A stretch of 52,000 nt of DNA, taken from an uncultured Ruminococcus sp. GTDB taxonomy: Bacteria > Bacillota > Clostridia > Oscillospirales > Acutalibacteraceae. The DNA lies in assembly GCA_902776375.1 (NCBI GenBank), contig CACYPV010000012.1:1-52000 (forward strand). Reading direction: 5' to 3'. Both the position numbers and the translations under genes were made by a program. The notes beneath the pieces were generated by a model. The model did not search any database and was not told where the DNA came from. It worked only from the letters and a program-made list of their open reading frames with translations. Below, piece after piece: positions 308 to 49,326 of the stretch (the first letter of the stretch is position 1; every line of letters begins with the position of its first letter).

Positions 308-1963
308 TCAACTATTAAGCATTTCCTCGGCGTGCGAAATTGCCGCCTGAGTTATGTTCACTCCGCCGATTATCCTTGCAAGCTCGTTGACCCTTGCGTC
401 ATGGTCGAGCTCGGTGACGACGGTGAACGTCCTGCCCTGCTCCACTCGTTTGTCGATCAGATAGTGGAAATCAGCGAGCGCGGCGATCTGCGCCTGGTGA
501 GTAACGCACAGCACCTGTCCGGCGCGCGATACCTCTTTAAGCTTCAAGCCGACCTTTTCGGCGGCTGAACCGGAGATACCCGTGTCGACCTCGTCGAATA
601 TCAGCGTGTCAACGTCGTCCGATTCCGAAAGGACGGTCTTTATGGCGAGCATCATTCTGGACAGCTCGCCGCCGGAGGCGATCTTCGCGACGGGGCGCGG
701 GGTCTCGCCGGGGTTGGCTGAGATGAGCAGCTCGACCTTGTCGACCCCGTCCGGGCTTAATTCAGTTTCCTGAAACTGCGGAACGAGCTCAACGTTGGGC
801 ATGTTGAGGAAGCGCATCTCCTCCCTGACCTTGCCGGCGAAGGTGAGCGCCGCTTCTTTGCGCTTTTCACTCAGCTTTTGCGCCAGCGCAGAGGCGTTGG
901 CTTTGGCGGCTTCGCAGGCGGCGATAAGCTCGTCGCGGTTTTTATCGTAATTGAGCAGCTCTTCAAGGCGGGTCTGCATTTGCTCGGCAAGAGCGGGCAG
1001 CTCGTCTGAGGTGCAGTTGTATTTGCGGGTCAGGCGGTTGAGCAGGTCAAAACGCTCCTCGATCTCTTCAAGGCGCTCGGGGTCGCTGTCCAAATTGTCG
1101 ATAGCGTCGGAAATGCTCTCGGCGCAGTCGCGAAGGTTGTAGTAAATATCGGTCAGGCTGTTGCTCAGCTCCTCGTATCCGGAGTCGTAACGCGCGGCGC
1201 TCTGCATTGCTGAGGCGGCGATATCAACAGATTCTATGCCGCCGTCGGAGTCCTCGCCGTCGAGCATGAGCCTTGCCTTGTTGAGCAGGGATGATATCTT
1301 CTCAAAGTTCATCAGCGAGGTGCGCTCGGCTTCGAGCCGTTCTTCCTCGCCTATTTGCACGTCGGCTTCAAATAGCTCCTGCGACTGGAATTGCAGCAGG
1401 TCTATCTCGCGCAGGCGTTCGCTTTCGTCTGAATTGGCTTCGTTTAATTTCTTTTGAAGAATTTTAAACTGTTTATAGCTCTCACGGTACTCATCGAGAA
1501 GCTCACCGCAGCCGCCGTAGCTGTCGATGTAGCCCAGGTGCGTATCGGTGGAAAAGAGCTCGTAGCTCTCGTGCTGACCGTGGATGTTGATAAGGTGCCT
1601 GCTCAGCTCGCGCAGCATAGCTACGGTCGCTGGTCTGCCGCCTATTTTGCAGGTGTTCTTGCCGCTTTGGCTCAAGGCGCGCTGGATAATGAGCTCGTCG
1701 TCGTCACTGTCGAAGCCCAGCTCCTCAAGAGCGGCTTTTACAGAGGGGTTTACGTCCTCAAACACAGCGCTTACAAAGGCGTTGCTTTCGCCCGTGCGGA
1801 TGATATCCTTTGAGGTGCGTTGACCCATGATGGCGTTGATGGCGTCTATAATGATACTTTTTCCCGCGCCGGTCTCACCCGTCAGGACGTTTAGCCCGCG
1901 CGAGAAGTCAATGGTCGTTTTTTCGATAACAGCGATATTTTCGATGTATAAGGTTTTTAACAT
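308..1963 (-). CDS. recN: DNA repair protein RecN
   Basis: A cytoplasmic SMC-like ATPase of 551 residues that organises DNA ends during double-strand break repair by recombination. The N-terminal half-ATPase carries the Walker A motif GETGAGKS at residues 29-36. A long acidic coiled-coil region fills the middle (about 150-380). The C-terminal half-ATPase has the ABC signature ASGGELSR, then Walker B and D-loop FDEVDTGISG. The length matches the family. It is the last gene of nadK-argR-recN; only 14 bases separate it from argR, which suggests co-transcription. The stop lies directly against repeat block 1. Confidence 0.97.
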   Translation of the reverse strand: MLKTLYIENIAVIEKTTIDFSRGLNVLTGETGAGKSIIIDAINAIMGQRTSKDIIRTGESNAFVSAVFEDVNPSVKAALEELGFDSDDDELIIQRALSQSGKNTCKIGGRPATVAMLRELSRHLINIHGQHESYELFSTDTHLGYIDSYGGCGELLDEYRESYKQFKILQKKLNEANSDESERLREIDLLQFQSQELFEADVQIGEEERLEAERTSLMNFEKISSLLNKARLMLDGEDSDGGIESVDIAASAMQSAARYDSGYEELSNSLTDIYYNLRDCAESISDAIDNLDSDPERLEEIEERFDLLNRLTRKYNCTSDELPALAEQMQTRLEELLNYDKNRDELIAACEAAKANASALAQKLSEKRKEAALTFAGKVREEMRFLNMPNVELVPQFQETELSPDGVDKVELLISANPGETPRPVAKIASGGELSRMMLAIKTVLSESDDVDTLIFDEVDTGISGSAAEKVGLKLKEVSRAGQVLCVTHQAQIAALADFHYLIDKRVEQGRTFTVVTELDHDARVNELARIIGGVNITQAAISHAEEMLNS

Positions 1964-16185: not shown

Positions 16186-17184
16186 TTATCTCTTTGCCTT
16201 TCTGTTCTGCCAGATGACCCACAGGGGACCTGCGATGCAGATAGAAGAGTAGCAGCCGGAAATAACACCGATCATCATCGGAAGCGCGAAGCCCTTAACA
16301 GAGCTGATATTGAATACGCTTGCAACGATGAAAACAGTCATGATCGCGACAAGAGTAGTGACAGACGTCATGATAGTTCTCTTTATGGTCTTTGTGGCGC
16401 TCACGTTGAATACCGTGTCGATGCCGACCTTTCTGCCCATAAGCTTTCTCTGCTCACGAACACGGTCGTAAATAACGATGGTATCGTTAAGCGAGTAACC
16501 GAGGATCATCAGAACTACCGCGATAAAGTTGGAATCGATCGGCCAGCGGAAGATGACGTACATGAAGAAGATCATCGCTACGTCGTGGAACAGCGCGACA
16601 AGCGCGAACACGCCCGCGGAGAAACCGCCGATCTTTCTGAAACGCAGAGCCACGTACAGAACCATGAGCAAGCTTGCGATTCCTACAGCGACCAAGCACT
16701 TGAGCAGGAAGCTGAAGCCCATTGACGGGTCAACAGAGTTTTCTTCGAGCAGTGCGAACTCAGCGTCGGGGAATTGCTTTTGCAGCTCGTCAGTCAGCTT
16801 TGCGCCGATCTCCTTGTCGATAGCCTCGTTGCCGGGGAACTGTACGGTAACGTTGTTGCCGGTGTTGCCCGCCATATCGCTGGAGAACGAGGTGGAAACA
16901 GTGTCTTTAGTGGTTTTTTCCTGAATGAAGTTATGCAGCTCGTCGTGGTTGATATCGCCCTTATAGCTGTATGTCAGGGTCGCGCCGCCCGAGAACTGGA
17001 TATCGAGCGTGACGTTAAAGATGAAAAGGCAAATTATACCGATAAGAATAATGCCGAGTGAAATGCAGAAGTAGATCTTGCTTTTGCCGGTAAAGTTTAT
17101 GATGCGTCTGCCGCCGTTAAACTTTTCGCTGATTTCCTCTTTGGTCATGGTAGTTGCCGGATTTTTAAGCTCATTATTTGCCAT
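16186..17184 (-). CDS. secF: Protein translocase subunit SecF
   Basis: A six-helix RND-type membrane protein of 332 residues that with SecD uses the proton or sodium gradient to pull proteins through SecYEG. The first periplasmic-side segment has IQFSGGATLTYSY. The conserved LMILGYSLNDTIVIYDRVRE lies in transmembrane region 4. The start is ATG 17184, eleven bases inside the secD end and seven bases after GGAGGT; upstream in-frame ATGs would lie deeper in secD without a better site. SecDF is split into two genes here, as in most Clostridia. Confidence 0.96.
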   Translation of the reverse strand: MANNELKNPATTMTKEEISEKFNGGRRIINFTGKSKIYFCISLGIILIGIICLFIFNVTLDIQFSGGATLTYSYKGDINHDELHNFIQEKTTKDTVSTSFSSDMAGNTGNNVTVQFPGNEAIDKEIGAKLTDELQKQFPDAEFALLEENSVDPSMGFSFLLKCLVAVGIASLLMVLYVALRFRKIGGFSAGVFALVALFHDVAMIFFMYVIFRWPIDSNFIAVVLMILGYSLNDTIVIYDRVREQRKLMGRKVGIDTVFNVSATKTIKRTIMTSVTTLVAIMTVFIVASVFNISSVKGFALPMMIGVISGCYSSICIAGPLWVIWQNRKAKR

Positions 17185-18595
17185 TCTTAGCACCTCCATA
17201 CAACCAGGGATTTCTGAAAGGCTTGAGTCCCGCAATGCTTCTGAGCATCAGTCTTGAGAAGAAGATACCCATGATGAAGTTGGAGATAACGCCTACCAGC
17301 AATGTGTAACCGAACGAGTAGATAGTACCCGTTGTAGCTTCACCAAAGATGAACGAAAGAATGTTAGAGGGACCGAATACGAGCAGCAGGATGATCGATA
17401 CGATAACGACCGTCATGTTACCGTCGATGATCGCTGAAAGCGAGTTCTTGGTACCCTTTTCAAGCGCGCCGTCAAGGGTCCTTCCTCCGCGCAGCTCTTC
17501 CTTGATACGTTCTGCGGTGATAACGTTACAGTCAACGCCCATACCTATCGACAGGATAAGACCAGCGATACCGGGCAGAGTCATTGTGAATGACGGGAAT
17601 ATAGTGAAGTATCCCGAGATAGCCGCTACGGAAAGCGCAAGCTGACCGATAAGCGAAATAACGGCGATACAGCCGGGCAGGCGGTAGAACACGATCATGA
17701 TGATCATGATGAGCACAAAGGCGATACCCGCAGCCCAACCCATAGCGAGAAGGGCGTTCTGACCCAGTGTGGGGCTGATGTTGCCGTAGGTGACGGTTTC
17801 AAGCTCAAAGGGAAGCGCACCGGCTTTGATCTTGTTGGCAAGGTCGGCAGCCTCCGCAGATGTGAAGTCGCCTTCGATAACGGCATTGCCGTCGGTGATA
17901 ATCGAGTTTACCCTGGGAGCGGAGATCATCTGATCGTCCATCCAGATGGAAACGACCTTGTCTTTGTAATCAGTGGTGATCTGCTTGAACTTCTCGGCAC
18001 CCTCTTCGGTAAGGGTGAGCTCAACGATAGGCTCGCTCATTTTGCCGGTTTCCTGTCTGACAGCGGCTTTGGCATCCTTTACCATATCGCCGGTCATGAG
18101 GATATTCTCGTCGCCGGCGGTCTCACCTGACGGAGTCAGATAAATGGTTTTGCCGTTTTTATCGATCGTCGCAGTCTCGTAGGAGTTGCCGGGACGGAAC
18201 GTTAGCTTGGCGGTAGCGGATATCTCGCTTATAGCCTCGCTGGCGTTATACTCTTTTTCGTCCGACTTCCACGGGAAACGTACGATGATCCTGTCCTTGT
18301 TGGTATCGGCGTACAGTTCGTAATCCGTAATACCCGAGGACACCATTCTCGTCTCAATAATTGCTTTCGCGGCATCAAGCTCATCGGAATCGGCGTCATA
18401 GTCGTTTGCCGGCTTGAAGGTCGCGTTTACGCCGCCGCTGATGTCAATTCCCCATCGAATGTCGCCCACACCCTTGAGCACCGTGGTTTTGTTATCGCCG
18501 GTAAAATAGGCGATACCGAAAATGGCGGTGAACGCAAAGGCGAGGATCAACAAAGCGACAATGAAAAAGACAGGCTTTGGAACTCTTTTCATCAT
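17174..18595 (-). CDS. secD: Protein translocase subunit SecD
   Basis: A 473-residue RND-type partner of SecF. The first helix (about 10-31) is followed by a large P1 extracytoplasmic domain (about 45-270) with the conserved segments LTFRPGNSYE, DMVKDAK and WMDDQMISAPRV. Five more helices follow from about 280, including GLILSIGMGVDCNVITAERI, which carries the conserved acidic residue of transmembrane helix 4. GGAGG precedes the ATG by ten bases. A strong sigma-A-type promoter is present at 18732-18760. The gene upstream encodes a free-standing copy of the P1 domain. Confidence 0.97.
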   Translation of the reverse strand: MMKRVPKPVFFIVALLILAFAFTAIFGIAYFTGDNKTTVLKGVGDIRWGIDISGGVNATFKPANDYDADSDELDAAKAIIETRMVSSGITDYELYADTNKDRIIVRFPWKSDEKEYNASEAISEISATAKLTFRPGNSYETATIDKNGKTIYLTPSGETAGDENILMTGDMVKDAKAAVRQETGKMSEPIVELTLTEEGAEKFKQITTDYKDKVVSIWMDDQMISAPRVNSIITDGNAVIEGDFTSAEAADLANKIKAGALPFELETVTYGNISPTLGQNALLAMGWAAGIAFVLIMIIMIVFYRLPGCIAVISLIGQLALSVAAISGYFTIFPSFTMTLPGIAGLILSIGMGVDCNVITAERIKEELRGGRTLDGALEKGTKNSLSAIIDGNMTVVIVSIILLLVFGPSNILSFIFGEATTGTIYSFGYTLLVGVISNFIMGIFFSRLMLRSIAGLKPFRNPWLYGGAKNGK

Positions 18596-18638
18596 GCCTA
18601 AAAAACCTCCGTAAATAATGTTTCAAGCACAGAAAAAA

Positions 18639-18731
18639 CCGCTTTCGGCGGCTGCTCCTACGCTTGGGTATCTGAATAGCACGCAAAAAACAACTCCGTT
18701 ACGCGTGCATACTTACAGACATAACAGAGTT
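18639..18731 (-). promoter_or_regulatory. secDF leader with inverted repeat over the start region
   Basis: Downstream of the promoter, the minus strand has AACTCTGTTATG (18731-18720) and its partner CGTAACGGAGTT (18703-18692), twelve pairs including wobbles, followed by GTTTTTTG. A second smaller stem CCGC/GCGG (18651-18639) is followed by six T. The first repeat begins at about the transcription start, so its left arm may be only partly transcribed. It could be an operator, an attenuator, or the terminator of the upstream gene. It does not match a riboswitch class I know. Confidence 0.4.
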
Positions 18732-18760
18732 ATTATATGTTTTTTTTGTTAATTTGTCAA
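18732..18760 (-). promoter_or_regulatory. Sigma-A-type promoter of secD-secF
   Basis: The minus strand reads TTGACA (18760-18755), 17 bases, TATAAT (18737-18732): consensus in both boxes. The predicted start is about 18725, giving a leader of roughly 130 bases before secD. Confidence 0.85.
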
Positions 18761-19012
18761 TAGAATAAAGAATATTTGCGCAGATTTTTTTATCTTTATA
18801 AAAAATGCATAAAGAATTTTTAGTGGCTAGTGGTTAGTGGCTAGTGGTTAGTGAGTTATAAGTTATAAGTAATAAGTTATAAGTCGTTAGCTGAAACGTT
18901 TAGATTATTTGCAGCGACTTTTCCACAAAACAATACAAATCATGTGCGGGCTTCGCGAAAGACTCGCCCGCAATTGTCCACCGTCAATTGTCAATTAATT
19001 ATTTTCAAATCT
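18761..19012. repeat. Intergenic repeat block 3 (TAGTGGC and ATAAG units)
   Basis: Between the SecD-like lipoprotein gene and the secD promoter lie TAGTGGCTAGTGGT units (about 18821-18852), ATAAG/TAATAAG units (about 18852-18884) and a core copy CTGAAACGTTTAGATTATTT (18891-18910) followed by GCAGCGAC. These match the repeat types near 100-180 and 3320-3410. The rest (18920-19012) shows a weak palindrome at CGGGCTTCGCGAAAGACTCG and nothing coding. Confidence 0.65.
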
Positions 19013-19762
19013 CTATTCCAGCGGATAAGGCAGCGTGCCGGAGTTGATTTGATTGGCGATCTTAGTCGCTTCTTCAATTGTAAAATTGCCCGAAACAATA
19101 ACCTGTCCGTCGGTGATCGGCACCTGTACCGTAGGCGCGGCTAGCATTTCGTCATCTAACCATATCGAAATGATTTTGTTCGTGTACCTTTCGGTAAGGC
19201 TTTTGAATTTTTCAGTACCATCGGCGGTGAATTCTAACACTATAACGGGCTCAGCCGTATCGCCGTTCTGCTGAATTTCAGACCTTGCACTTTTAACCAT
19301 AGAGCCGTCCATCAGTACTTTTCCGGTTTTACCCGAGGGAATTCTATAAACAGGATTTCCGTTATCATCATAGGCTTCCTCTAAGTATTCATTTCCAGGT
19401 CTGAAAGTAACGGCAGCTTGTGTGGTCAAATAATTGGCAATATCACCCTCATAGTTGATCACATCCTCGTCATTCTCTGCCTTGATGTTATCGGGTCTGT
19501 TGAATTTGACCGTCAACGTATCATCCGATTCATCGGTATCGATTTCATAATCGGTTATCCCTATAGCCGAAAGTCGAGCTTCAATAACAGCCTTTTCAGC
19601 AGAAAGCTCCTCAGCGGATACGTCAAGATCTTTATATTCATAGGCATCCACAGTGTGAAAAGTCAAAACCGTGTTATATTTTTCAGCATCGGACGAACAG
19701 CCCGAAAGCATAAACGCCGACAGCATTAGAATAATAATAAAAACTGATATAAACTTTTTCAT
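19013..19762 (-). CDS. Lipoprotein consisting of a free-standing SecD P1-like domain
   Basis: A 249-residue predicted lipoprotein: signal peptide with lipobox LSGC and the cysteine at residue 22. The rest aligns throughout with the extracytoplasmic domain of the SecD encoded just downstream: GITDYEI/GITDYEL, VTFRPGNEY/LTFRPGNSY, GSMVKSA/GDMVKDA, TADGTEKFKSLTE/TEEGAEKFKQITT, ISIWLDDEMLAAPTV/VSIWMDDQMISAPRV, IANQINSGTLPYPLE/LANKIKAGALPFELE. It stops where SecD enters transmembrane helix 2. The start ATG 19762 follows GGGGA; an upstream frame extension lacks a signal. The function is unknown. A role as an accessory or decoy chaperone for Sec export is inference. Confidence 0.85.
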   Translation of the reverse strand: MKKFISVFIIILMLSAFMLSGCSSDAEKYNTVLTFHTVDAYEYKDLDVSAEELSAEKAVIEARLSAIGITDYEIDTDESDDTLTVKFNRPDNIKAENDEDVINYEGDIANYLTTQAAVTFRPGNEYLEEAYDDNGNPVYRIPSGKTGKVLMDGSMVKSARSEIQQNGDTAEPVIVLEFTADGTEKFKSLTERYTNKIISIWLDDEMLAAPTVQVPITDGQVIVSGNFTIEEATKIANQINSGTLPYPLE

Positions 19763-19836
19763 TTGATCATCCCCAAAAAATAATAATCCCGGCGTAATGA
19801 ACGTCGGGTTTATTATATCACTGTGTATTTTTATTG

Positions 19837-21117
19837 TCAATTGTTCAAAAGCTTCTCACATGCCGCAAGCTTAACGCACACGCAGAACACGTCCATTGCG
19901 TTTTGAAGCTCGTCGTTCGGCGGGAAGGACGGCGCGATGCGGATATTGGAATCCTTGGGGTCGTTGCCGTTGGGATAGGTCGCGCCGGCGCCCGTGAGCA
20001 CCAGACCTGCCTCCTTACAAAGGGCGACTACTCTTTTCGCGGTGCCTTCCATAACGTCTATGCTTACGAAGTAACCGCCGTTGGGGTTGGTCCACTCCCC
20101 TATTCCCACTGGGTTAAGCTCCTTGGCAAGGGTGTTGAGCACGATCTCAAACTTGGGCGCAAGCACAGCCTTATGCTTTTTCATGTGCTCCAAAACGCCG
20201 TTGTAATCGCCGAAATACTTTACATGGCGCAGCATGTTGAGCTTGTCATAGCTGATGACCTCAAAGTTATAACGCTCCATAAACACCTTCATGTTGTTGG
20301 GGGAAGCAGCCATTGCGGCTACGCCCGCTCCGGGGAAGGTAATCTTTGAGGTGGAGCAGAACATCAGAGGCATATCCTCGTTGCCCGCCTTAACGCACTC
20401 ATCGTAGATATTGAGCAGTGAATCGGGTGTGTCGGTAACGTCGTGCACGCAGTAAGCGTTGTCCCACATGATGCGGAAGTCCTTGGCGGCAGGCTTCAAA
20501 TTCGCGAAGCGCCTTACGGTCTCGTCGCTGTAGGTAACGCCCGAGGGATTGGAATACTTTGGCACGCACCATACGCCCTTGATGCTCTCGTCCTCCGCGA
20601 CGAGCTTTTCGATCATATCCATATCAGGGCCGTTCTCGTCCATGGGAACGGGTATCATTTCAAAGCCGTAGTAGCCCGTGATGCCGAAATGGCGGTCGTA
20701 GCCGGGAACGGGACAAAGGAACTTTCTGTCGGGCACCTCGTACCACGGCTTGCAGCCCTCAACTATGGGCTTGGTCATCATGCAGGAAATCGTATCGAAC
20801 ATCATGTTGAGGCTCGAGCTGCCGCCGACCATGACGTTTTTGTAGTCAACGCCGAGGATGTCGCCGAAAAGCTTTCTGCATTCCTCGATGCCGGCAAGGA
20901 TACCGTAGTTGCGGCAATCCATTTTATCCGCGCCGACAAAATCGGAGCTGCTGTTTACAATGTCGAGCATATCGAGAGAGAGGTCAAGCTGCGCCTTGCC
21001 GGGCTTTCCGCGAGCCATGTTGAGGCTCAGCCCCATTCCCTTGATCTCCTCGTACTGTTTTTTAAGACTTTGGTACTCCTGCTCAAGCTCCTGAGCATTC
21101 AGCTTTGAATAATTCAT
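19837..21117 (-). CDS. Type Ic aspartate aminotransferase-like enzyme
   Basis: A fold-type I pyridoxal phosphate enzyme of 426 residues related to the MocR-like/type Ic aspartate aminotransferases, which exchange amino groups between aspartate and 2-oxoglutarate. The cofactor lysine is K258 in CSTSKITFPGAG. Upstream segments MVGGSSSLNMMFD, PGYDRHF, VPKYSNPSGVTY and MWDNAYCVHD are the expected cofactor and substrate contacts. There is no DNA-binding domain. It is monocistronic, with its own promoter (21169-21197) and AAGGAG before the ATG. Confidence 0.88.
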   Translation of the reverse strand: MNYSKLNAQELEQEYQSLKKQYEEIKGMGLSLNMARGKPGKAQLDLSLDMLDIVNSSSDFVGADKMDCRNYGILAGIEECRKLFGDILGVDYKNVMVGGSSSLNMMFDTISCMMTKPIVEGCKPWYEVPDRKFLCPVPGYDRHFGITGYYGFEMIPVPMDENGPDMDMIEKLVAEDESIKGVWCVPKYSNPSGVTYSDETVRRFANLKPAAKDFRIMWDNAYCVHDVTDTPDSLLNIYDECVKAGNEDMPLMFCSTSKITFPGAGVAAMAASPNNMKVFMERYNFEVISYDKLNMLRHVKYFGDYNGVLEHMKKHKAVLAPKFEIVLNTLAKELNPVGIGEWTNPNGGYFVSIDVMEGTAKRVVALCKEAGLVLTGAGATYPNGNDPKDSNIRIAPSFPPNDELQNAMDVFCVCVKLAACEKLLNN

Positions 21118-28116: not shown

Positions 28117-30363
28117 TCAGGAAACGAAGCCCGCATTGATTCTCTGGATCTGTGTTACGTCGCGGATATTGACCTTGCCGTCCTTGTTGGCGTCAGCCGC
28201 GCGGAGCTGAGCGGAGGTGAGGGTCGTGTACTCAGCGAAGTAGCGCTGTAGCAGAGTAGCATCCTGAATATTTACGGTGCCGTTGAGGTCAACGTCGCCA
28301 GCGAGAACATCGTCAGCCGCGTTGATGAGCGTCTGAGTGGAGTAGGTGTAGCCGGAGAAGCCGCTCTGACCGGAGATGTTTTTAACAACGCCGTCGTCTA
28401 CAAGATAAGCGAACTGGATGTCGCCGGGAACGGGGTTGCCGATACCGAGGTTGATGACCTGCAGATTAACGGTGGTGGTGCCGGTGCCGAGAACGTTGAA
28501 GGTCGCGACTACAAAGTCGTCCATCGTGCTGTAGCTTACAAGGCCGGTGTCGGTAAAGTTGCCGAAAACAGTTCCTGGTGTATTGGTGTTGAGGGTGGGG
28601 CTTGTTTTGGGCATGGAAACCGTGTCGAGAGAAAGCTTGGATGTATCATATGTAAGCTTCCACTCAGCGTTAGCTACATTCTTGGAGGACTTGAGGCGGT
28701 AAGATACGGTGACCTTGTTGGTGGTCTCGTCGAAGGTACCTGTAGCGTCGTCGAACAAATTGGAGGTGCCTCTTACTGTCAAGGTCGCTCCGGGAGTTAC
28801 GCCGCCGTCGTCGATCTGCGAGGTAGGAGTAACTGTCACGCCGGAAACGGACTTGACAACGCTGTTCTCTACAACGCTCTGCAGGGTAGTGCCGGTGAGC
28901 ACGTTCATTTCCTCAACGTTGAGATTGACGTTAGCGGTGCCTGCAGCGAGGACTTCGAACTCAGCCTGTACGAATGCGTCGCCGGAGGTGAAGTCGTACT
29001 GATTGGTAACATCGGTGAAGTTGCCGTAAATGGGATTGCCGTTGTCGTTGATAATGCCGCCGCCAACGGGGCAAAGCGCTGTGCCGGAAGTCTTGATCCT
29101 GAGCTTGCTGCTGTCATAGGAAAGGCTCCAGTCTGCGCTGGCAATCTTTTTGCTGGTTTTAAGATCATACTTTACTGTTAAGGTGTCGCCTACGCTGAGT
29201 CCGCTCTGAGTAGAGGTCGGGAACAGGTTGGATGTGGCGTTTACGGTAAGGGTATCGCCTACAGGATCGGTAGGCTCAGTGGGTGTTGTGGGAGTGGTGG
29301 GGGTGGTGGGAGTAGTGGGAATGGGAGCGTCGCCCTGAGCTCCGATCCTTGCGAGCGGAACGGTAATAAGGTCGTCGTCCTCTTTTTCCTTAGAGGTGTT
29401 ATCGCCCGCGCGGTATTCGAGCTTAGCGTTGTCAAGCATTGAAACACCGTCGAAGGGAACGCAGTCCATCATAGACTCGCCTCTGGTACCGAAGAATATA
29501 GCGCCGATGCCGTTATCGGCAACATAAGAAGCGGTTGTTCCGAGAGCGGAGAAAGGAATAGCCATCTCATAGAAGGTATCGTAACTGATATCGTGCTTGC
29601 CCTTGCTGCCGGTAAAGGTCTTGTAGTCAACCCAGTCAGCGTTGTCATCAAAAACGTCGCTGGGTTCTTCCGAGTAATTCAAGCCCCAGATCTCGCTGCA
29701 GATATTGGTGTCAGCCTTCTTGTAGCTGATGCCCGCAGATGAGAAGGGTTTGCAGTGTTCCGCGTAATCGGAAGCGCCGGTGGAATCACATGTAAACATA
29801 GCGGGTGTGCCTGTGCCGACCTTCGCGCTCATAAAGAACAGGTGATCGACATGGGTCTGGAATGTAGAGTCTAAACCCCAAATGCCGTATTTGTTATTTA
29901 CCTTTTCCTTCAGCTTGCCGGTCATGCCGGTTGAGCTCGGGTCAACGCTGAGGCCGAGAACGATCGGGATCTCGCCCATCTTGCCGCCGTCCATCAAAGA
30001 AGCGTCGCCGGGGCGCTGCCATGTGTCGGTGGTGTTTACAAACTGCATACCGATATAAAGATTCGTGCTGTCATAAGCCGCGAAAAGCGCGTAACAGTCG
30101 GCAAGACTGTTTTCGTGAGAGCCTTTCCAATGGTTGGGGCAATCCCAAGCTGCGCCGCGCGCAATCATCATATCCTCTGACCAGTCGTTCACGCTGCCGT
30201 CTATTGTAATGGTAGCCTGCTTACCGTACTGACCGTTCGGATTGGTTTGATATACGCTTGCAAGTGTTTCCGCAGCTCCGGCTGATACGGCGGCGACAAC
30301 TGCGGTAGAGATAAGCAACAGTGCAACAAGCAAAATGCTTATCAATTTTTTCGTGTTTTTCAT
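28117..30363 (-). CDS. Secreted protein with carbohydrate-binding-like, two cohesin-like and dockerin modules
   Basis: A secreted protein of 748 residues. The signal peptide is about residues 1-31 (cleavage near VSAGAAE). Residues about 45-340 resemble a CBM9/DOMON-type sandwich starting TITIDGSVNDWSEDM, the usual opening of such modules. A PTTPTTP linker (about 350-365) follows. Two related modules (about 372-510 and 525-665) start LTVNATSNLF and LTVRGTSNLF and carry the cohesin-like pattern GDTLTVKYDLK...LSYDSSKL. The C-terminus is a two-repeat type I dockerin (GDVDLNGTVNIQDATLLQRY and DANKDGKVNIRDVTQIQRI). It could act as an adaptor. Whether the internal modules bind dockerins cannot be told. 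Confidence 0.82.
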   Translation of the reverse strand: MKNTKKLISILLVALLLISTAVVAAVSAGAAETLASVYQTNPNGQYGKQATITIDGSVNDWSEDMMIARGAAWDCPNHWKGSHENSLADCYALFAAYDSTNLYIGMQFVNTTDTWQRPGDASLMDGGKMGEIPIVLGLSVDPSSTGMTGKLKEKVNNKYGIWGLDSTFQTHVDHLFFMSAKVGTGTPAMFTCDSTGASDYAEHCKPFSSAGISYKKADTNICSEIWGLNYSEEPSDVFDDNADWVDYKTFTGSKGKHDISYDTFYEMAIPFSALGTTASYVADNGIGAIFFGTRGESMMDCVPFDGVSMLDNAKLEYRAGDNTSKEKEDDDLITVPLARIGAQGDAPIPTTPTTPTTPTTPTEPTDPVGDTLTVNATSNLFPTSTQSGLSVGDTLTVKYDLKTSKKIASADWSLSYDSSKLRIKTSGTALCPVGGGIINDNGNPIYGNFTDVTNQYDFTSGDAFVQAEFEVLAAGTANVNLNVEEMNVLTGTTLQSVVENSVVKSVSGVTVTPTSQIDDGGVTPGATLTVRGTSNLFDDATGTFDETTNKVTVSYRLKSSKNVANAEWKLTYDTSKLSLDTVSMPKTSPTLNTNTPGTVFGNFTDTGLVSYSTMDDFVVATFNVLGTGTTTVNLQVINLGIGNPVPGDIQFAYLVDDGVVKNISGQSGFSGYTYSTQTLINAADDVLAGDVDLNGTVNIQDATLLQRYFAEYTTLTSAQLRAADANKDGKVNIRDVTQIQRINAGFVS

Positions 30364-39571: not shown

Positions 39572-42500
39572 ATGAAAAAACTAATCTCTATGTTCATCAC
39601 AGGCGCAATGCTGCTTACGGCATTTCCCACCGTTTCGGCGGCAGTGCAAACAAACCCGGATTACACCACCGAACAACCTGCGGTTAAGACTGACGCTGTT
39701 TCTTTACCAACCCTTGATGTTGGGGATGAATCCGCATTCAAAGGCTACACACCTTCCAATGTATCCGCAGGTGAAAGGGAAAACGCAGATAGCCTTGCCG
39801 ACAAAACAGGTTCGGCTTCGGTTGGCGCAGGCATTAGCTTTTCCGTAAAGGGCGACACGCTGACCATCACCGGCTCCGGCTCGATGCAAGGCTTGATGGA
39901 TAACAGCAAATACCCGTGGTCGGACAAAGCTTCCGGCGTTAAACACATCGTCATTCAAAACGGCATCACCGACATTTACAGCTATGCTTTTATGGATTTT
40001 AAATCTCTGGAAAGCATTTCCGTTCCATCGTCCGTGACGAGCATTGGTGAAGGGGCTTTTTACGAATGCTCCAGCCTGAAAGAAATTGTTTTGCCAAGCA
40101 GCGTTAAAAAAATCGGCAGCGGTGCGTTTTGTGATTGCAGCAATATACAAAAGGCTCAAATCAGCGGTGTTACCGAAATCGGCGATTACGCTTTTGAAAG
40201 CACAGGCCTGTCAACCATCACCCTGGGAAAGGATTTGAAGCAGTTTTCCGCAATGGCGTTTTTTGGCTCCCATTTGACCGACATTAAAGTCGATTCCGCC
40301 AACACCTCTTTGAAGGCAATTAACGGAGTGCTGTACAACAAGGCAATGGACACACTTCTTTTTTATCCGCCGCGCAAGGCCGGAAAAACCTTTCAGGTCC
40401 CTGCATCGGTAAAAACCATCGGCAGCTGCGCGTTCTGCAGAAACCTGTACCTTGAATCTGTGGATTTGTCCGCTGTCGTAACGCTTAAAGATTCGGCGTT
40501 TCAGGAATGCTACGCTCTAGACAGCATCGTGATTCCCGATTCGGTAACAAGTGCGGAAGACTTTACCTTTTACAGTTGTCCTGCGCTGAAATCCGTGACC
40601 TTCGGAAAGGGGCTAAAAACAACCGGCTACCAAATGTTCAGGGAATGCAAAAAGCTTGCGCAAATCAACTTCGGCGGATTGCAGGAAATTTACGCGATGT
40701 CTTTTGGTGACTGCAGCTCGTTGGAAAGCGTGTCACTGCCGGCTTCCGTGAAATCAATCGGCAACGGAGCCTTTGGAAACTGTCGGGCATTAAAGAGCGT
40801 TTATGCGGCGGAGGTAACAGTAATTCCGTATCAGGCATTTTTGAATGACAATCTATTGAACTCTGTTAGTTTTCCAAAGCTGAAAAACGTCAACCGCGCT
40901 GCGTTTTTGGGATGCAGCTCCCTGAAAAAGCTCAGCCTTCCGAAAAGCACCGAATTCGTTCATTCCATCGCATTTGAAAAAGATGTGCAGCTCACCTGTG
41001 CAAACGCTGCGCTGAAGCCTTATGGCTACAACGGACTTCGCAAGCTGCAGCAGGTGGCTTTAAGCGGCGACGAAAGCTACAGCGAGGCATTTTCGGTGCT
41101 GACGCTGGTAAACCAAGAGCGCAGCAAAAACGGGCTGAAACCGCTTGTTATGAACCAGTCTCTGATGGATACCGCCATGCTGCGCGCTGCCGAATGTGCG
41201 GTTTGTTTTTCTCACACCCGTCCCAACGGTTCCACCTGCATGAGCGCCAACACCCTGATGAGCGGCGAAAACATTGCATTCAACCAGATGAACGCCGACG
41301 ACGTTATGAATTCATGGATGAATTCAACCGGTCACCGTGAAAATATATTAAGCGGAGATTACACCACAATTGGTGTAGGCTGCTTTAAAAATAACGGAAG
41401 AATCACGTGGGTACAGTGCTTTGGCACCGGCAGCGACACCGCAAGCTGCAAAAAGCCGTCGGACAAGCATGTCACACGCACACTTCAACTGGCGACAGAG
41501 GAATTCACCGAGGCAACCGACTCTGACTACCACACCATCTTCGGAAGTCTCGAAACATATTCTTTCCATTTCTTTATTCAGCTGGACGGATTTATATACA
41601 GCATGGAAACCGATCAAACAGTGCAGGCTCGCCTGTGTGTCAGCAATTCGCAATATCCCTATATCATAACCGTACTGGATAACACCGGAATTACCTGGTC
41701 GGTAAAAGACACCGGCACCGCGTCTGTTACCTCCGGCGGCATGGTGACGGCAAAAGCGCCCGGAGACGCCGAAATTGAGGCGAAGTTGACGTATTATTCG
41801 GCGGCGAAAACCATCAGAGTTTACCAAAAAAATCCTGTGATTCAAAAAGTCGAAAACACAGGCTCCGGTATTTCGCTGCAATGGAACAATTGCTATGGCG
41901 CCGACAGGTATATTGTATACTACCGTCCGGAGTCGGAAAAAGAGTGGGATTACGATTACACATACGACACAAGCTATACACTGAATCATCTTAAACCCGG
42001 CGTGCGCTACTGCTTCCAGGTTTGCGCACACAGCTATTACGACAATACAAATTATTATTCCAATGTTGTAAGCAAGACATACGAGATTCCGCCAAGCCTT
42101 TCCCTCTCCAACAACAGCGCCGGATTAACGGCAGCCTGGAGCAGCACCGGCGCGGATTCCTATGTGGTATATTACCGCCCTGCCGAGCGCAGCACTTGGT
42201 CGAGCTTTACCGCAACCGACAACAAAGCGGTGATTCCAAACACCGAATCGGGCAAGCTGTACTGCGTTCAGGTGCAGAATATTTTCAACGGCAAAAACGG
42301 CGCGTATTCCAAGGTCAAGAGCATGACTTATCTTGCCCGTGCCAATATGACAACTCTCACCTATAACGGCAGCAACACCCTTCAATGGAGTGCTGTTGAC
42401 GGTGCAAATCAATACCAAATCGCGCGCAAAAAAACAGGCGACAAAGCATACACCTATTACACAACGACAGAAACCGGCTTTGCCGAGCAAAACGTAACGG

Positions 42501-43117
42501 CAGGCACCACCTACACCTATCAGGTGCGCGCAATGTATAAAACCGAGAAAAACGGCACCGCCTACGGCGCTTGGTCGTCCTCAAAATCTGTTGTCACGAT
42601 TGAAAAGCCCGAGCTGCGCCTGTCAAACAAAAAGAACGGTGTCCGCCTGGAATGGAACGCCGCAAAGGGTGCGGTAAAATATGTGGTTTACTACAAAAAA
42701 GCAGGCGACAAAAGTTGGTCGTCAACCACAACCGCAAACACCTACTATCCGTATCTGAACGTAACAGAGGGACAGCAGTATTATTTCCAGCTCCGCGCAA
42801 TCGGGCAAAATTTGAACGGTCCCTATTCCAAGGTACAGACAAAGGTATTTTATAACCCATACACGCAAAAGCCCGCGGTTGCGCTCTCGCGCGGCGATAA
42901 CAGCCTTAACGCAAGCTGGAACGCTATTGACGGCGCGACAAAATACATCGTCTACTACCGCCGGAACGATACCGCGCAGTGGTCGTCCACACAGGTTCCC
43001 GACTGCAATTTTGTCTACCCGAACGCGGTAAAGGGCACAACCTATTGCGTACAGGTACAGCCGGTATTCGGCAGCACCAAGGGTGCCTATTCAAAGGTAC
43101 AGCGAATCACTTACTAA
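39572..43117 (+). CDS. Large secreted protein with BspA-type LRRs, CAP domain and FN3-like repeats
   Basis: A protein of 1181 residues with a signal peptide (about 1-24). BspA-type leucine-rich repeats follow (about 125-480; for example SVPSSVTSIGEGAFYECSSL). A CAP/SCP domain (about 505-630) has LTLVNQERSKNGLKPL, FSHTRPNGSTC, SGENIA and MNSTGHRENIL, so the His/Glu pocket residues are present. A Big_2-like segment (about 690-755) precedes five fibronectin III-like modules (about 760-1181) with YIVYYRP/YVVYYKK strands. There is no LPXTG, dockerin or S-layer motif, so its anchoring is unknown. AGGAGG precedes the ATG. A hairpin follows at 43216. Confidence 0.85.
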   Translation: MKKLISMFITGAMLLTAFPTVSAAVQTNPDYTTEQPAVKTDAVSLPTLDVGDESAFKGYTPSNVSAGERENADSLADKTGSASVGAGISFSVKGDTLTITGSGSMQGLMDNSKYPWSDKASGVKHIVIQNGITDIYSYAFMDFKSLESISVPSSVTSIGEGAFYECSSLKEIVLPSSVKKIGSGAFCDCSNIQKAQISGVTEIGDYAFESTGLSTITLGKDLKQFSAMAFFGSHLTDIKVDSANTSLKAINGVLYNKAMDTLLFYPPRKAGKTFQVPASVKTIGSCAFCRNLYLESVDLSAVVTLKDSAFQECYALDSIVIPDSVTSAEDFTFYSCPALKSVTFGKGLKTTGYQMFRECKKLAQINFGGLQEIYAMSFGDCSSLESVSLPASVKSIGNGAFGNCRALKSVYAAEVTVIPYQAFLNDNLLNSVSFPKLKNVNRAAFLGCSSLKKLSLPKSTEFVHSIAFEKDVQLTCANAALKPYGYNGLRKLQQVALSGDESYSEAFSVLTLVNQERSKNGLKPLVMNQSLMDTAMLRAAECAVCFSHTRPNGSTCMSANTLMSGENIAFNQMNADDVMNSWMNSTGHRENILSGDYTTIGVGCFKNNGRITWVQCFGTGSDTASCKKPSDKHVTRTLQLATEEFTEATDSDYHTIFGSLETYSFHFFIQLDGFIYSMETDQTVQARLCVSNSQYPYIITVLDNTGITWSVKDTGTASVTSGGMVTAKAPGDAEIEAKLTYYSAAKTIRVYQKNPVIQKVENTGSGISLQWNNCYGADRYIVYYRPESEKEWDYDYTYDTSYTLNHLKPGVRYCFQVCAHSYYDNTNYYSNVVSKTYEIPPSLSLSNNSAGLTAAWSSTGADSYVVYYRPAERSTWSSFTATDNKAVIPNTESGKLYCVQVQNIFNGKNGAYSKVKSMTYLARANMTTLTYNGSNTLQWSAVDGANQYQIARKKTGDKAYTYYTTTETGFAEQNVTAGTTYTYQVRAMYKTEKNGTAYGAWSSSKSVVTIEKPELRLSNKKNGVRLEWNAAKGAVKYVVYYKKAGDKSWSSTTTANTYYPYLNVTEGQQYYFQLRAIGQNLNGPYSKVQTKVFYNPYTQKPAVALSRGDNSLNASWNAIDGATKYIVYYRRNDTAQWSSTQVPDCNFVYPNAVKGTTYCVQVQPVFGSTKGAYSKVQRITY

Positions 43118-43545: not shown

Positions 43546-46500
43546 CTATCCCAAAGTCACGTCAAACTCGGCGAAATACATTTGCAAGAGGGTGGCGTCT
43601 CTGACGTCCACAACCCCGTCGAAATTCACATCGGCGGCGCCGCGCTGCCTTTCGGTCAGGTCGGTGTATTCCGCCAAAAATCTTTGGATAGCGGTAACAT
43701 CGCGGATGTTCACCTTGCCGTCCTCGTTTACATCGCCGAATGTAAAGTCTATCGGCTTTTTGGGGATGACCTGCGGCGCGATCAGCCATTCACCGCAGCG
43801 CTTGCAACGCACGCCGTCGGTTGAGCCCTCCTTGGTATAGGTGGCAGGCACAGCGGGCACGATTTCATATTGATGCTTCAAGGCGGGAATGACATCCTGC
43901 GCGACTATCACCTCGCCGCAAACAGAACAGTGCGAGCCCTCGGTCAGACCTGTGTGACCGCAGCTTGGCTCCACAGCTTCGTCTAACACTTCAGTGTGAG
44001 GCAGCTTGGCTATCGGTTCGCCTTGAACGAACACCTCGCCGCAGCGTGCGCAATGCGAGCCGGCAGTATGACCCTCATGTGAGCAGGTCGGTGCAAGATA
44101 CGGATCAAGCACCGGCAAATGTCCCAACGCGGGTATCTCGATTTGCTCAACCAACACCTCATTGCACACAGAGCAATGCGAGCCCTCGGTCAAGCCGGTT
44201 TCGGTGCAAGTAGCGGCTTTGGCTTGATCTGCCACAGGAGTATGACCCTTAGCAGGTATCACCACGGCTTTGGTCATAACCTTTCCACATTCGGCGCAAA
44301 CGATCTCATCGGTCAGTCCGGCTTGGGTGCAGGTCGCGGGATAGCCGGGTATCGTTCGGGTCGTTTTATGGGTGCAAATATTTTTTATCTCGCCGTTCTC
44401 CACACGGATTTGATCCTCGTTGTCGATACGAATCGTCATATCGACAACGTTGAGGTCAACGGTAGTCTCGCCACCGCCCTTAACAGTAAATACGAAGGTG
44501 ATGAGATTGCCGCCCTTTGTTATGCTGGCGGGAGTGGAGATGTTGGAGTAGCTGCCCATCACATTGTAGGATTCGGCATTGGGGTTGACGAGCATTCTGC
44601 CACCATCGAATGAGTTGATCTCAGTGAGTTCAAGCAGATCCTTGTCGTAGTTCATGCCCCACTGGATGTCGACTATCTCGCGATCCTCGGGAGCTTTGAA
44701 GGATACTGTTACAGTGTCGCCGACCTCTATCTCCCGAGCCGCAACAGCTTGGCAGTAGTTGGATATACCGGACACAGTGCAGTATTCCGGAGCACAAGTC
44801 GTCGCCTCGTAATACTCAGTAGTACCCTCCTCTGCGGGAGCGGTCGTTTCTTCGTAAGCCTCGGTGGTTTCTTCCTGAGCCTCGGTGGTCTCTTCGGGAG
44901 TAGTGGTCTCCTCAACAGGAGGCACTACCTGACCTTCGGGCTTGATAATAGTCTGAACAGTGCAGTTGTCAAGGATGTCCTGATCAACCACTCCGTTGTA
45001 TACAAGGCGATGCTGAACATAGGGCTCTGCTATGGTATCATCGCAGAGTGCAAGGGCATCAATAAGGCAATCAACTGTGGTTACGCCTGCTTCTCTGTCG
45101 AGAACCTTGAATACGGCTCTTACAACAGTTACAGGTGATACGTTGTCTTCCTCAGTAGCGTAAGCAGCAGGCAGAACAGAGGTGTAGCTACCTACGAGTC
45201 TGCCGCCGTTGTCGTCGCCGAAGGTATTGACCATACCTGCGCCGAGACCCTGCTCAAACGCGAACGGGAAGATGGTGAATTTAGCCTGACGGCCATAGCC
45301 CATTATATTGTAGGCTTCTTTGAATTCAAGAACAGCGGGATCCCAGCTGAACTCTTCAACGTCGAGGTTGATGAGGTACTGTCCGGGAGCTGCGAGCTTG
45401 TATTCTACGGTAACGAATACGTTGCCGTTGCCATCCTCATAAGCGGAGAGATTGTTATAAGCATTTACAGTCTGCGGGAAAAGATTTGAGGTAGCCTTTA
45501 CAATCAGGGAATTTGCCGGAACAGAGGTAGTATCCTCTACATGAGAGGTTGTCTCTTCGTAGTTCGCGGTCGTTTCTTCGTAAGCCTCGGTGGTGCCTTC
45601 TTCTACAGGAGCGGTTGTCTCTTCGGGGTTCGCAGTTGTTTCTTCGTAAGCCTCGGTGGTCTCTTCCACATCATCATAAGTGATGGTAAGAGTAAACTTA
45701 GCGCCTGTCTTGGTAACGAAGTCAAAGTTTCTGAGGTCGAGCTGAGCCTTAACGGTGCAAGTATCATCGGTATCGAAGGTGATGTTGTCGCCGTTGAAAT
45801 CCGCCGGGGTTTCAACGCCGCTCTCTACGAACGCGCCGCCGAAGTTGTAGGGCCAATCGCCGTCGATAGTAAACTTGATCTGACGATCTAAGCCTTCGGG
45901 AACGTTTTCGAATTCAATCTCCCAAACTTCGTCAATGATCTCAGTCATCTTGTTTTCTGAGTATGCGGGATCCCAGTTTGCGTCGTTGAGCCATGTGCCC
46001 TCGCCGTTACCTACGGCGTAAACGGTGTTGTAATTGAACTCGGTGATCAGTTCAACATTGTCGCCTGTTACTTCAACATATTCGGGCTCTTCACCGGCAG
46101 CCGGATGATAGGTGACAGTAAAGGTGCCTTCGCCGGTAACGTTGAAGGTAACGTTTTTGCCGGTCTTGTCGCCGATCCAATCTGCGCCGTTCTTGACAGC
46201 CTTGAGCTGAACAGCATCATAAGCCTTTTCAACGGTGTAGTCCTTGGTGTAGGTACCGTCACCCTGCTTAGTCATCAGGTTGTCGGTATTGGCGCCGTCC
46301 CAGCCGGTGCCGAAGATCTCGGGCTCGGAACCTGCTACGATGAAGGTATCATCTTCCTCTGCGGGAGTGGTGGTTTCTTCAACAGCCTCGGTTGTTTCTT
46401 CGACTGCTTCGGTAGTCTCTTCAACTGCCTCAGTGGTCTCTTCGACTGCCTCGGTAGTCTCTTCAACTGCGGCTGTGGTCTCTTCCACGTAATCCTCAAT

Positions 46501-49269: not shown

Positions 49270-49296
49270 ACATGTACCTCCTTGTAAAAACATGTC

Positions 49297-49326
49297 ATTA
49301 TACAAATATATTGTAGCACATATCAA
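49297..49326 (-). promoter_or_regulatory. Sigma-A-type promoter of the 1907-residue protein gene
   Basis: The minus strand has TTGATA (49326-49321), 18 bases, TATAAT (49302-49297), about 28 bases before the start codon. Confidence 0.8.

Follow-up and report, generated by a model that had tools for sequence, protein, structure and literature searches.

Whether the P1 domain of SecD needs the membrane motor in order to act matters for understanding how SecDF aids protein export. At a locus of an uncultured Ruminococcus sp., a gene beside secD and secF encodes a P1 domain to which no motor is attached. A natural P1 of this kind, motor-less and tethered to the membrane, would be a ready-made test of a separable P1 role. 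The window, by which we mean the whole stretch of 52,000 nucleotides analysed, carries the following genes at this locus:

16186..17235, minus strand: secF
17174..18595, minus strand: secD, coding for an intact SecD of 473 aa whose P1 domain is the paralogue of the P1-only protein
19013..19762, minus strand: P1-only lipoprotein gene, 249 aa plus stop, predicted lipobox LSGC with Cys22, P1 fold at about residues 31-249
19837..21117, minus strand: gene upstream of the P1-only gene, presumed to be aminotransferase-like

The first-pass annotation had described, beside secD-secF, a gene for a lipobox-bearing protein made only of SecD P1, and the open reading frame, BLASTP, Pfam and the lipobox all confirm it. 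Translation likely starts at the ATG at 19762 (N-terminus MKKFISVFIIILMLSAFMLSGC), the mechanical ORF extending to a TTG at 19840. Residues 45-249 match SecD 65-266 with 86 of 209 columns identical (41%; BLASTP, E 2e-52, single comparison), and both motif pairs quoted earlier, one of them VTFRPGNEY/LTFRPGNSY, are present in this alignment. The claim that the whole mature protein aligns with SecD P1 thus stands for residues 45-249 and falls for residues 22-44, which lie outside the BLAST match, and for the IRWGIDISGG segment of SecD, which is missing (gap at all 10 columns). Likewise, the protein was said to stop where SecD enters its second helix: no later helices follow, and the C-terminus matches SecD 266, about 15 residues short of the TM2 hydrophobic stretch as read from the sequence. 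Pfam PF22599 (SecDF_P1_head) is matched at 78.4 bits against a gathering score of 27 (E 5e-22), with no match to PF02355 (SecD_SecF_C, helices 2-6) at E up to 1. The NCBIfam model for full SecD, TIGR01129, gives 74.6 bits, failing its cut-off of 244.4, versus 261.7 for the adjacent SecD. A frameshift restoring the SecD helices would have undone the proposal; such a broken SecD was rejected, as a tblastn query of SecD residues 261-473 gave no match (E up to 10) in 18596-19012, the interval from the P1-only stop to the secD start. The protein is a known domain in a new arrangement, a predicted lipoprotein consisting of P1 alone. No description of one was found in the open-licence literature searched at listing level; a survey of ORFs shorter than 300 aa upstream of secDF in more than 30,000 genomes may include P1-only ORFs among its unreported clusters (PMC10987492).

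Lipid anchoring is predicted from the N-terminus. The LSGC at Cys22 of the window protein fits the strict lipobox pattern, which is fitted by 8 of the 22 P1-only proteins found in all. A Cys at residues 17-24 within a loose lipobox occurs in 21/22 of them versus 41/827 control ORFs, a contrast that is overstated because the control used mechanical start codons and several P1-only starts were set by eye. Pfam LPAM_1 scores 13.7 bits in the window protein, under its cut-off of 20. Both lgt and lspA were found in the window genome (G000:C17 and G000:C3).

The structure prediction suggested earlier as a check was made with AlphaFold2 from an alignment of 15 rows, drawn from the window and related loci: four P1-only proteins and 11 SecD P1 domains, the latter helping the P1 fold to emerge in the model. 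Mean pLDDT was 85.1, residues 1-25 being low. Foldseek against the PDB placed the chains of 3aqo, the crystallised isolated P1, at ranks 1-3 (best E 4e-16; TM by query 0.68-0.69, by target 0.76 for 3aqo_A), followed at ranks 4-11 by eight chains from entries of SecDF or the holo-translocon, with E above 0.01 from rank 12. A PDB sequence search with the P1-only protein also put 3aqo on top (E 1e-13). The modelled protein has the fold of the SecDF P1 domain.

Is the gene part of the secD transcription unit? Its surroundings contain these elements:

18732..18760, minus strand: separate promoter-like site of secD, TTGACA-17-TATAAT, 12/12
19788..19808, no strand assigned: inverted repeat between the -10 and the P1-only start codon, followed by a T-rich run on the minus strand
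19812..19840, minus strand: promoter-like site of the P1-only gene, TTGACA-17-TATAAT, 12/12, overlapping the end of the aminotransferase-like gene

A promoter scan of 5.7 kb returned 13 promoter-like sites against 6.6 expected from shuffles, with the 12/12 consensus at two, one preceding the P1-only gene and the other preceding secD. The two genes are 417 bases apart in the window and, each having its own promoter-like site, look like separate transcription units. The inverted repeat has one A.C mismatch on the minus strand, and the scan lists it on the plus strand, not on the minus. By eye, the promoter-like site has counterparts in G006, G109, G118 and G119, together with a better-paired hairpin at the same place; in all five species, including that of the window, the stretch from the aminotransferase-like gene to the P1-only start has first a -35/-10 pair, then an inverted repeat whose tail is T-rich, and finally a purine-rich site. 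Of the 100 loci examined, many have a relative of the aminotransferase-like gene next to secD, and it is between these two that the P1-only gene sits. In two genomes from outside the genus, G203 and G247, the P1-only gene stands, as in the window, between the aminotransferase-like gene and secD; only 55 bases separate it from secD in both, so that the two genes may be co-transcribed there.

To place the gene in the genus, PF22599 was searched over 161 genomes and the loci were read, the counts being lower bounds taken from the matches listed. An intact P1-only protein is encoded in at least 15 of the 161 genomes (at least 14/160 without the window's own), which fall into five classes:

Class A, P1-only gene directly before secD: G000 (the window genome), G006, G109, G118, G119
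Class B, similar neighbourhood: G107, G134, G137, G145
Class C: G023
Class D, beside a presumed gpmI: G027
Class E, only part of the P1 head, between presumed ligA and spoIIIAA: G032, G034, G061, G066

The names of neighbour genes other than SecD and SecF (gpmI, ligA, spoIIIAA and a CNNM-like gene) are presumptive. The earlier suggestion of looking for such genes beside secD is borne out in the five class A species; 10 of the 15 genes, among the matches listed, lie away from secD, and a partnership with SecDF is therefore unproven. In G144 a decayed remnant with stops and a lost 5' part lies between the aminotransferase-like gene and secD (L107), and in G008 secD, cut by the contig end, adjoins the aminotransferase-like gene with no P1-only gene between. 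Most of the relatives searched lack the gene, and G144 has it in decay, so that it is dispensable. Absence from all close relatives together with decay had been named as grounds for giving up the proposal, and the intact copies in at least 15 genomes and the purifying selection in classes A and B (see below) run counter to both.

Outside the genus, only genomes with at least two PF22599 matches were followed up in our order and phylum samples, and the counts are again lower bounds. At least 4 of 293 genomes of the order encode a P1-only lipoprotein (G203, G247, G250 and G409; the G250 protein scores 21.3 bits, under the Pfam cut-off), as do at least 2 of 397 in the phylum sample without the window's own (G203 again, and G799). 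Genus and others differ by Fisher's test (p 1e-6 for the phylum, 2e-4 for the order), a test that does not correct for relatedness and whose underlying search model may be biased towards close kin. In G260 the slot between the aminotransferase-like gene and secD holds a lipoprotein that resembles P1 by eye, without a Pfam match and missed by our own profile. Counting this one, a P1-like gene stands directly before secD at 4 (G203, G247, G250, G260) of the 80 loci upstream of secD covered outside the genus, three of these four loci having been preselected for the gene. Another P1-only record comes from an uncultured Ruminococcus (L094).

Second P1 matches by themselves overstate the number of P1-only genes: in 5 of the 9 phylum genomes with at least two matches (G474, G527, G609, G733, G783) the extra match lies in frames of 432-668 aa, that is, SecD-sized or larger. 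Also set aside were G495, another of the nine, where one SecD is split into two frames; G414, whose second match is in a frame of 444 aa, the same length as its first; and an HMM match in G436 that looks like a signal-peptide match. Two further architectures were seen. L109 (1129-3279, plus strand) encodes a signal-like N-terminus, a P1-like domain (PF22599 18.5 bits, cut-off 27) and SLH domains, and L106 of G409 (1144-1878, plus strand) a lipoprotein in which an LRR-like stretch, recognised by eye, seems fused to a P1 head.

Where could these proteins have come from? The class A copy of G119 has no lipobox; it starts MRIPKPVFVIIIVALS, resembling SecD MKRVPKPVFFIVALLI, which is a SecD-like first helix and points to partial duplication of secD, and its highest identity, 41%, is to its own SecD. 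The simplest history would be a part-duplication of secD in which the first helix was later swapped for a lipoprotein signal. A careful tree was built from 93 rows (80 SecD and 13 of the 22 P1-only proteins), leaving out as too divergent the four class E proteins and those of G247, G250, G260, G409 and G799. In this tree 11 P1-only proteins of the genus and L094 form one group (89/98, not starred), and the G203 protein groups with its own SecD (92/96). Long branches are flagged, and placing all 13 in one clade is not rejected by the AU test (p-AU 0.338); the sequences are compatible with one origin or several. The SecDs of G000, G109, G118 and G119 share one clade (100/100) with those of G144, which has the decayed copy, and of G024 and G136, each with a single P1 match among the matches listed; G006 is absent from the tree as its secD runs off the contig.

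The P1-only gene is under purifying selection and evolves about four times faster than secD. Between G000 and G006, dN is 0.45 for the P1-only gene versus 0.12 for secD. The test was an NG86 codon comparison in which dS was saturated (infinite) in 4 of 6 class A pairs, omega being taken there from the bootstrap draws with finite dS: it is 0.14-0.26 for G000/G006, whose point estimate is undefined through this saturation. Omega is 0.25 (range 0.23-0.49) for G000/G119, 0.25 (0.08-0.82) for G006/G109 and 0.17-0.40 over six class B pairs. Three class E pairs give 0.26-0.45 with upper bootstrap ranges of 0.65 to 1.38, so that selection in class E is not settled. Between G006 and G109 (L034, L071) the P1-only gene and secD differ little at synonymous sites (0.05 and 0.13), whereas two genes upstream diverge by 0.54-1.0, which looks like a recent exchange of the P1-secD segment.

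Residues retained from SecD were counted at columns at least 90% conserved in 48 family SecD P1 rows, the long-branch row G026 having been dropped. Over 13 P1-only proteins, 267 of 377 SecD-conserved cells (71%) are kept in the head and C-terminal part, and 123 of 364 in the N-terminal base, a count in which 3 of 28 columns align to the signal or linker part and class B gaps are taken as losses. The 10 columns around IRWGIDI.GG keep 11 of 130 cells. FPWK is only partly lost, its Trp (Trp89) being found in 0/13 proteins, Lys in 1, Phe in 3 and Pro in 5. In SecD, IRWGIDI.GG and this Trp adjoin the membrane motor.

The E. coli SecD P1 head carries a pocket for substrate binding and touches PpiD, a chaperone anchored in the membrane (PMC11470409), and the head is thought to move in a proton-driven cycle (PMC11470409, PMC9508474, PMC8669966). 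We tentatively favour, at somewhat less than even confidence, a role read from the head domain: a lipid-tethered P1 without motor that would passively hold emerging polypeptides near the export site. A partial secD duplicate, comprising the signal region and P1 without helices 2-6, would have turned into a lipoprotein, which Lgt and Lsp would anchor via Cys22 on the external side of the membrane. The head, the part of SecD with the substrate-binding pocket, would have been retained, and the segments linking P1 to the proton-driven membrane part lost. Keeping the head and missing the membrane part, the protein could not pull; its lipid tether means that it could hold, gripping emerging or unfolded exported chains at the translocon.

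The protein is like SecD P1 (PF22599; PDB 3aqo, 5yhf, 5xan) in modelled fold, head motifs and predicted extracytoplasmic side, and unlike SecD in having neither helices 2-6 nor IRWGIDI.GG, a predicted lipid anchor replacing TM1 (except in G119). It may fill the place taken elsewhere by membrane-anchored extracytoplasmic chaperones such as the lipoprotein PrsA or PpiD/YfgM. The proposed role resembles theirs in the outer-face tether and the handling of chains leaving SecYEG, whereas the window protein has no Pfam match to a PPIase domain at E up to 1. That secD has repeatedly been part-duplicated in place, freeing P1 as a tethered holder acting in trans with or downstream of SecDF and founding a recurrent class of Sec-side lipoproteins, is a wider proposal that we find possible and rather doubtful. 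If P1-only proteins do bind exported chains and aid secretion, P1 holding would be separable from proton-driven pulling, and gut Clostridia would have an additional family of Sec-related lipoproteins. Against a holding role it can be said that conserved head residues may be merely structural, that the head is incomplete in class E, that most genus genes (10/15) are off secD, and that a P1-like domain is fused to SLH domains. The lost motor-side motifs, the gene's own promoter-like site, its rarity outside the genus and the copies unlinked to secD make an extension of SecDF action, as first proposed, one of several possibilities.

The P1 fold of the model would also suit a modulator, a free P1 docking on SecDF, SecY or YidC instead of or beside SecD P1 and tuning or blocking the motor, and this agrees with the gene's place immediately upstream of secD in class A as well as G203, G247 and G250 (three family codes); we think it unlikely, as IRWGIDI.GG and the FPWK Trp, which flank the membrane part, are lost, the P1-only gene and secD have separate 12/12 promoter-like sites in the window, and the other classes are not linked to secD. 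The unlinked classes and the SLH fusion keep alive another explanation, which we rate as about as unlikely as the modulator, in which P1 would now be a general extracytoplasmic binding domain (for peptide, glycan or wall) with no Sec role. Genes beside gpmI, between ligA and spoIIIAA and near a CNNM-like gene, as we presume these neighbours to be, fit such an exaptation, as does the sub-threshold P1-like domain ahead of the SLH domains in L109; the retention of SecD-type head residues (71% over 13 proteins) and the recurrence of copies adjoining secD do not.

Improbable, in our judgement, is a transient by-product, a partial duplicate drifting toward loss. The faster evolution of the gene relative to secD, the remnant in G144 and the patchy presence would be expected of one, but omega is well below 1 in classes A and B with frames open, five species share the upstream order of parts even at protein identities as low as 36%, and neighbourhoods are similar among the four class B genomes and among the four of class E. 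Still less probable, indeed very much so, is a secretion monitor, an upstream secretory ORF that would stall the ribosome and control secDF as VemP does. Upstream ORFs acting in this way on secDF are known in Vibrio, with candidates reported in Clostridia (PMC11470409, PMC10987492), and the 55-base gap in G203 and G247 fits this reading. Like VemP and uDF_DGMK-stop, the P1-only protein is predicted to be exported, and its gene in some genomes immediately precedes secDF; unlike them it is a large, folded, conserved domain, the entire P1 being retained, and no common C-terminal arrest motif was seen by eye in 11 aligned rows, which have no RAPP-like or DGMK end and differ in their tails. In the window, moreover, secD has its own 12/12 promoter-like site downstream of the ORF. 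In two further genomes of the order, small ORFs immediately preceding secD, L151 (3676-4086, plus strand) and L145 (3770-4117, plus strand), end in DGMK and DGKK, resembling the published uDF_DGMK-stop arrest peptides of Clostridia (PMC10987492).

Two other features of the window were recorded. The secD leader (18593-18731, minus strand) is a candidate secDF attenuator. A promoter-like site is present in 54 of the 54 upstream regions extracted from the genus, and most show, by eye, AACTCTGTTAyG with a matching arm and T-run, as well as a competing stem of GUCUGUA.. with ..ACAGAC. Among the 26/54 that pass a pattern filter the cognate duplex has -14.5 kcal/mol versus -9.9 kcal/mol with swapped arms (0/500 permutations as low, relatedness uncorrected). 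The fold of the window leader has a z of -3.86; the RNAalifold consensus shows the first hairpin only, and no Rfam family reaches its gathering score, the matches at E up to 1 lying far below it. Large multidomain proteins, of the sort for whose secretion the first-pass annotation supposed that a detached P1 may matter, are encoded at 28117-30363 (minus strand), 39572-43117 (plus strand) and 43546-49326 (minus strand); they comprise one with both cohesin and dockerin, a BspA-LRR protein with CAP and fn3, and one of 1926 aa with LRR, a pullulanase X25 domain and dockerin.
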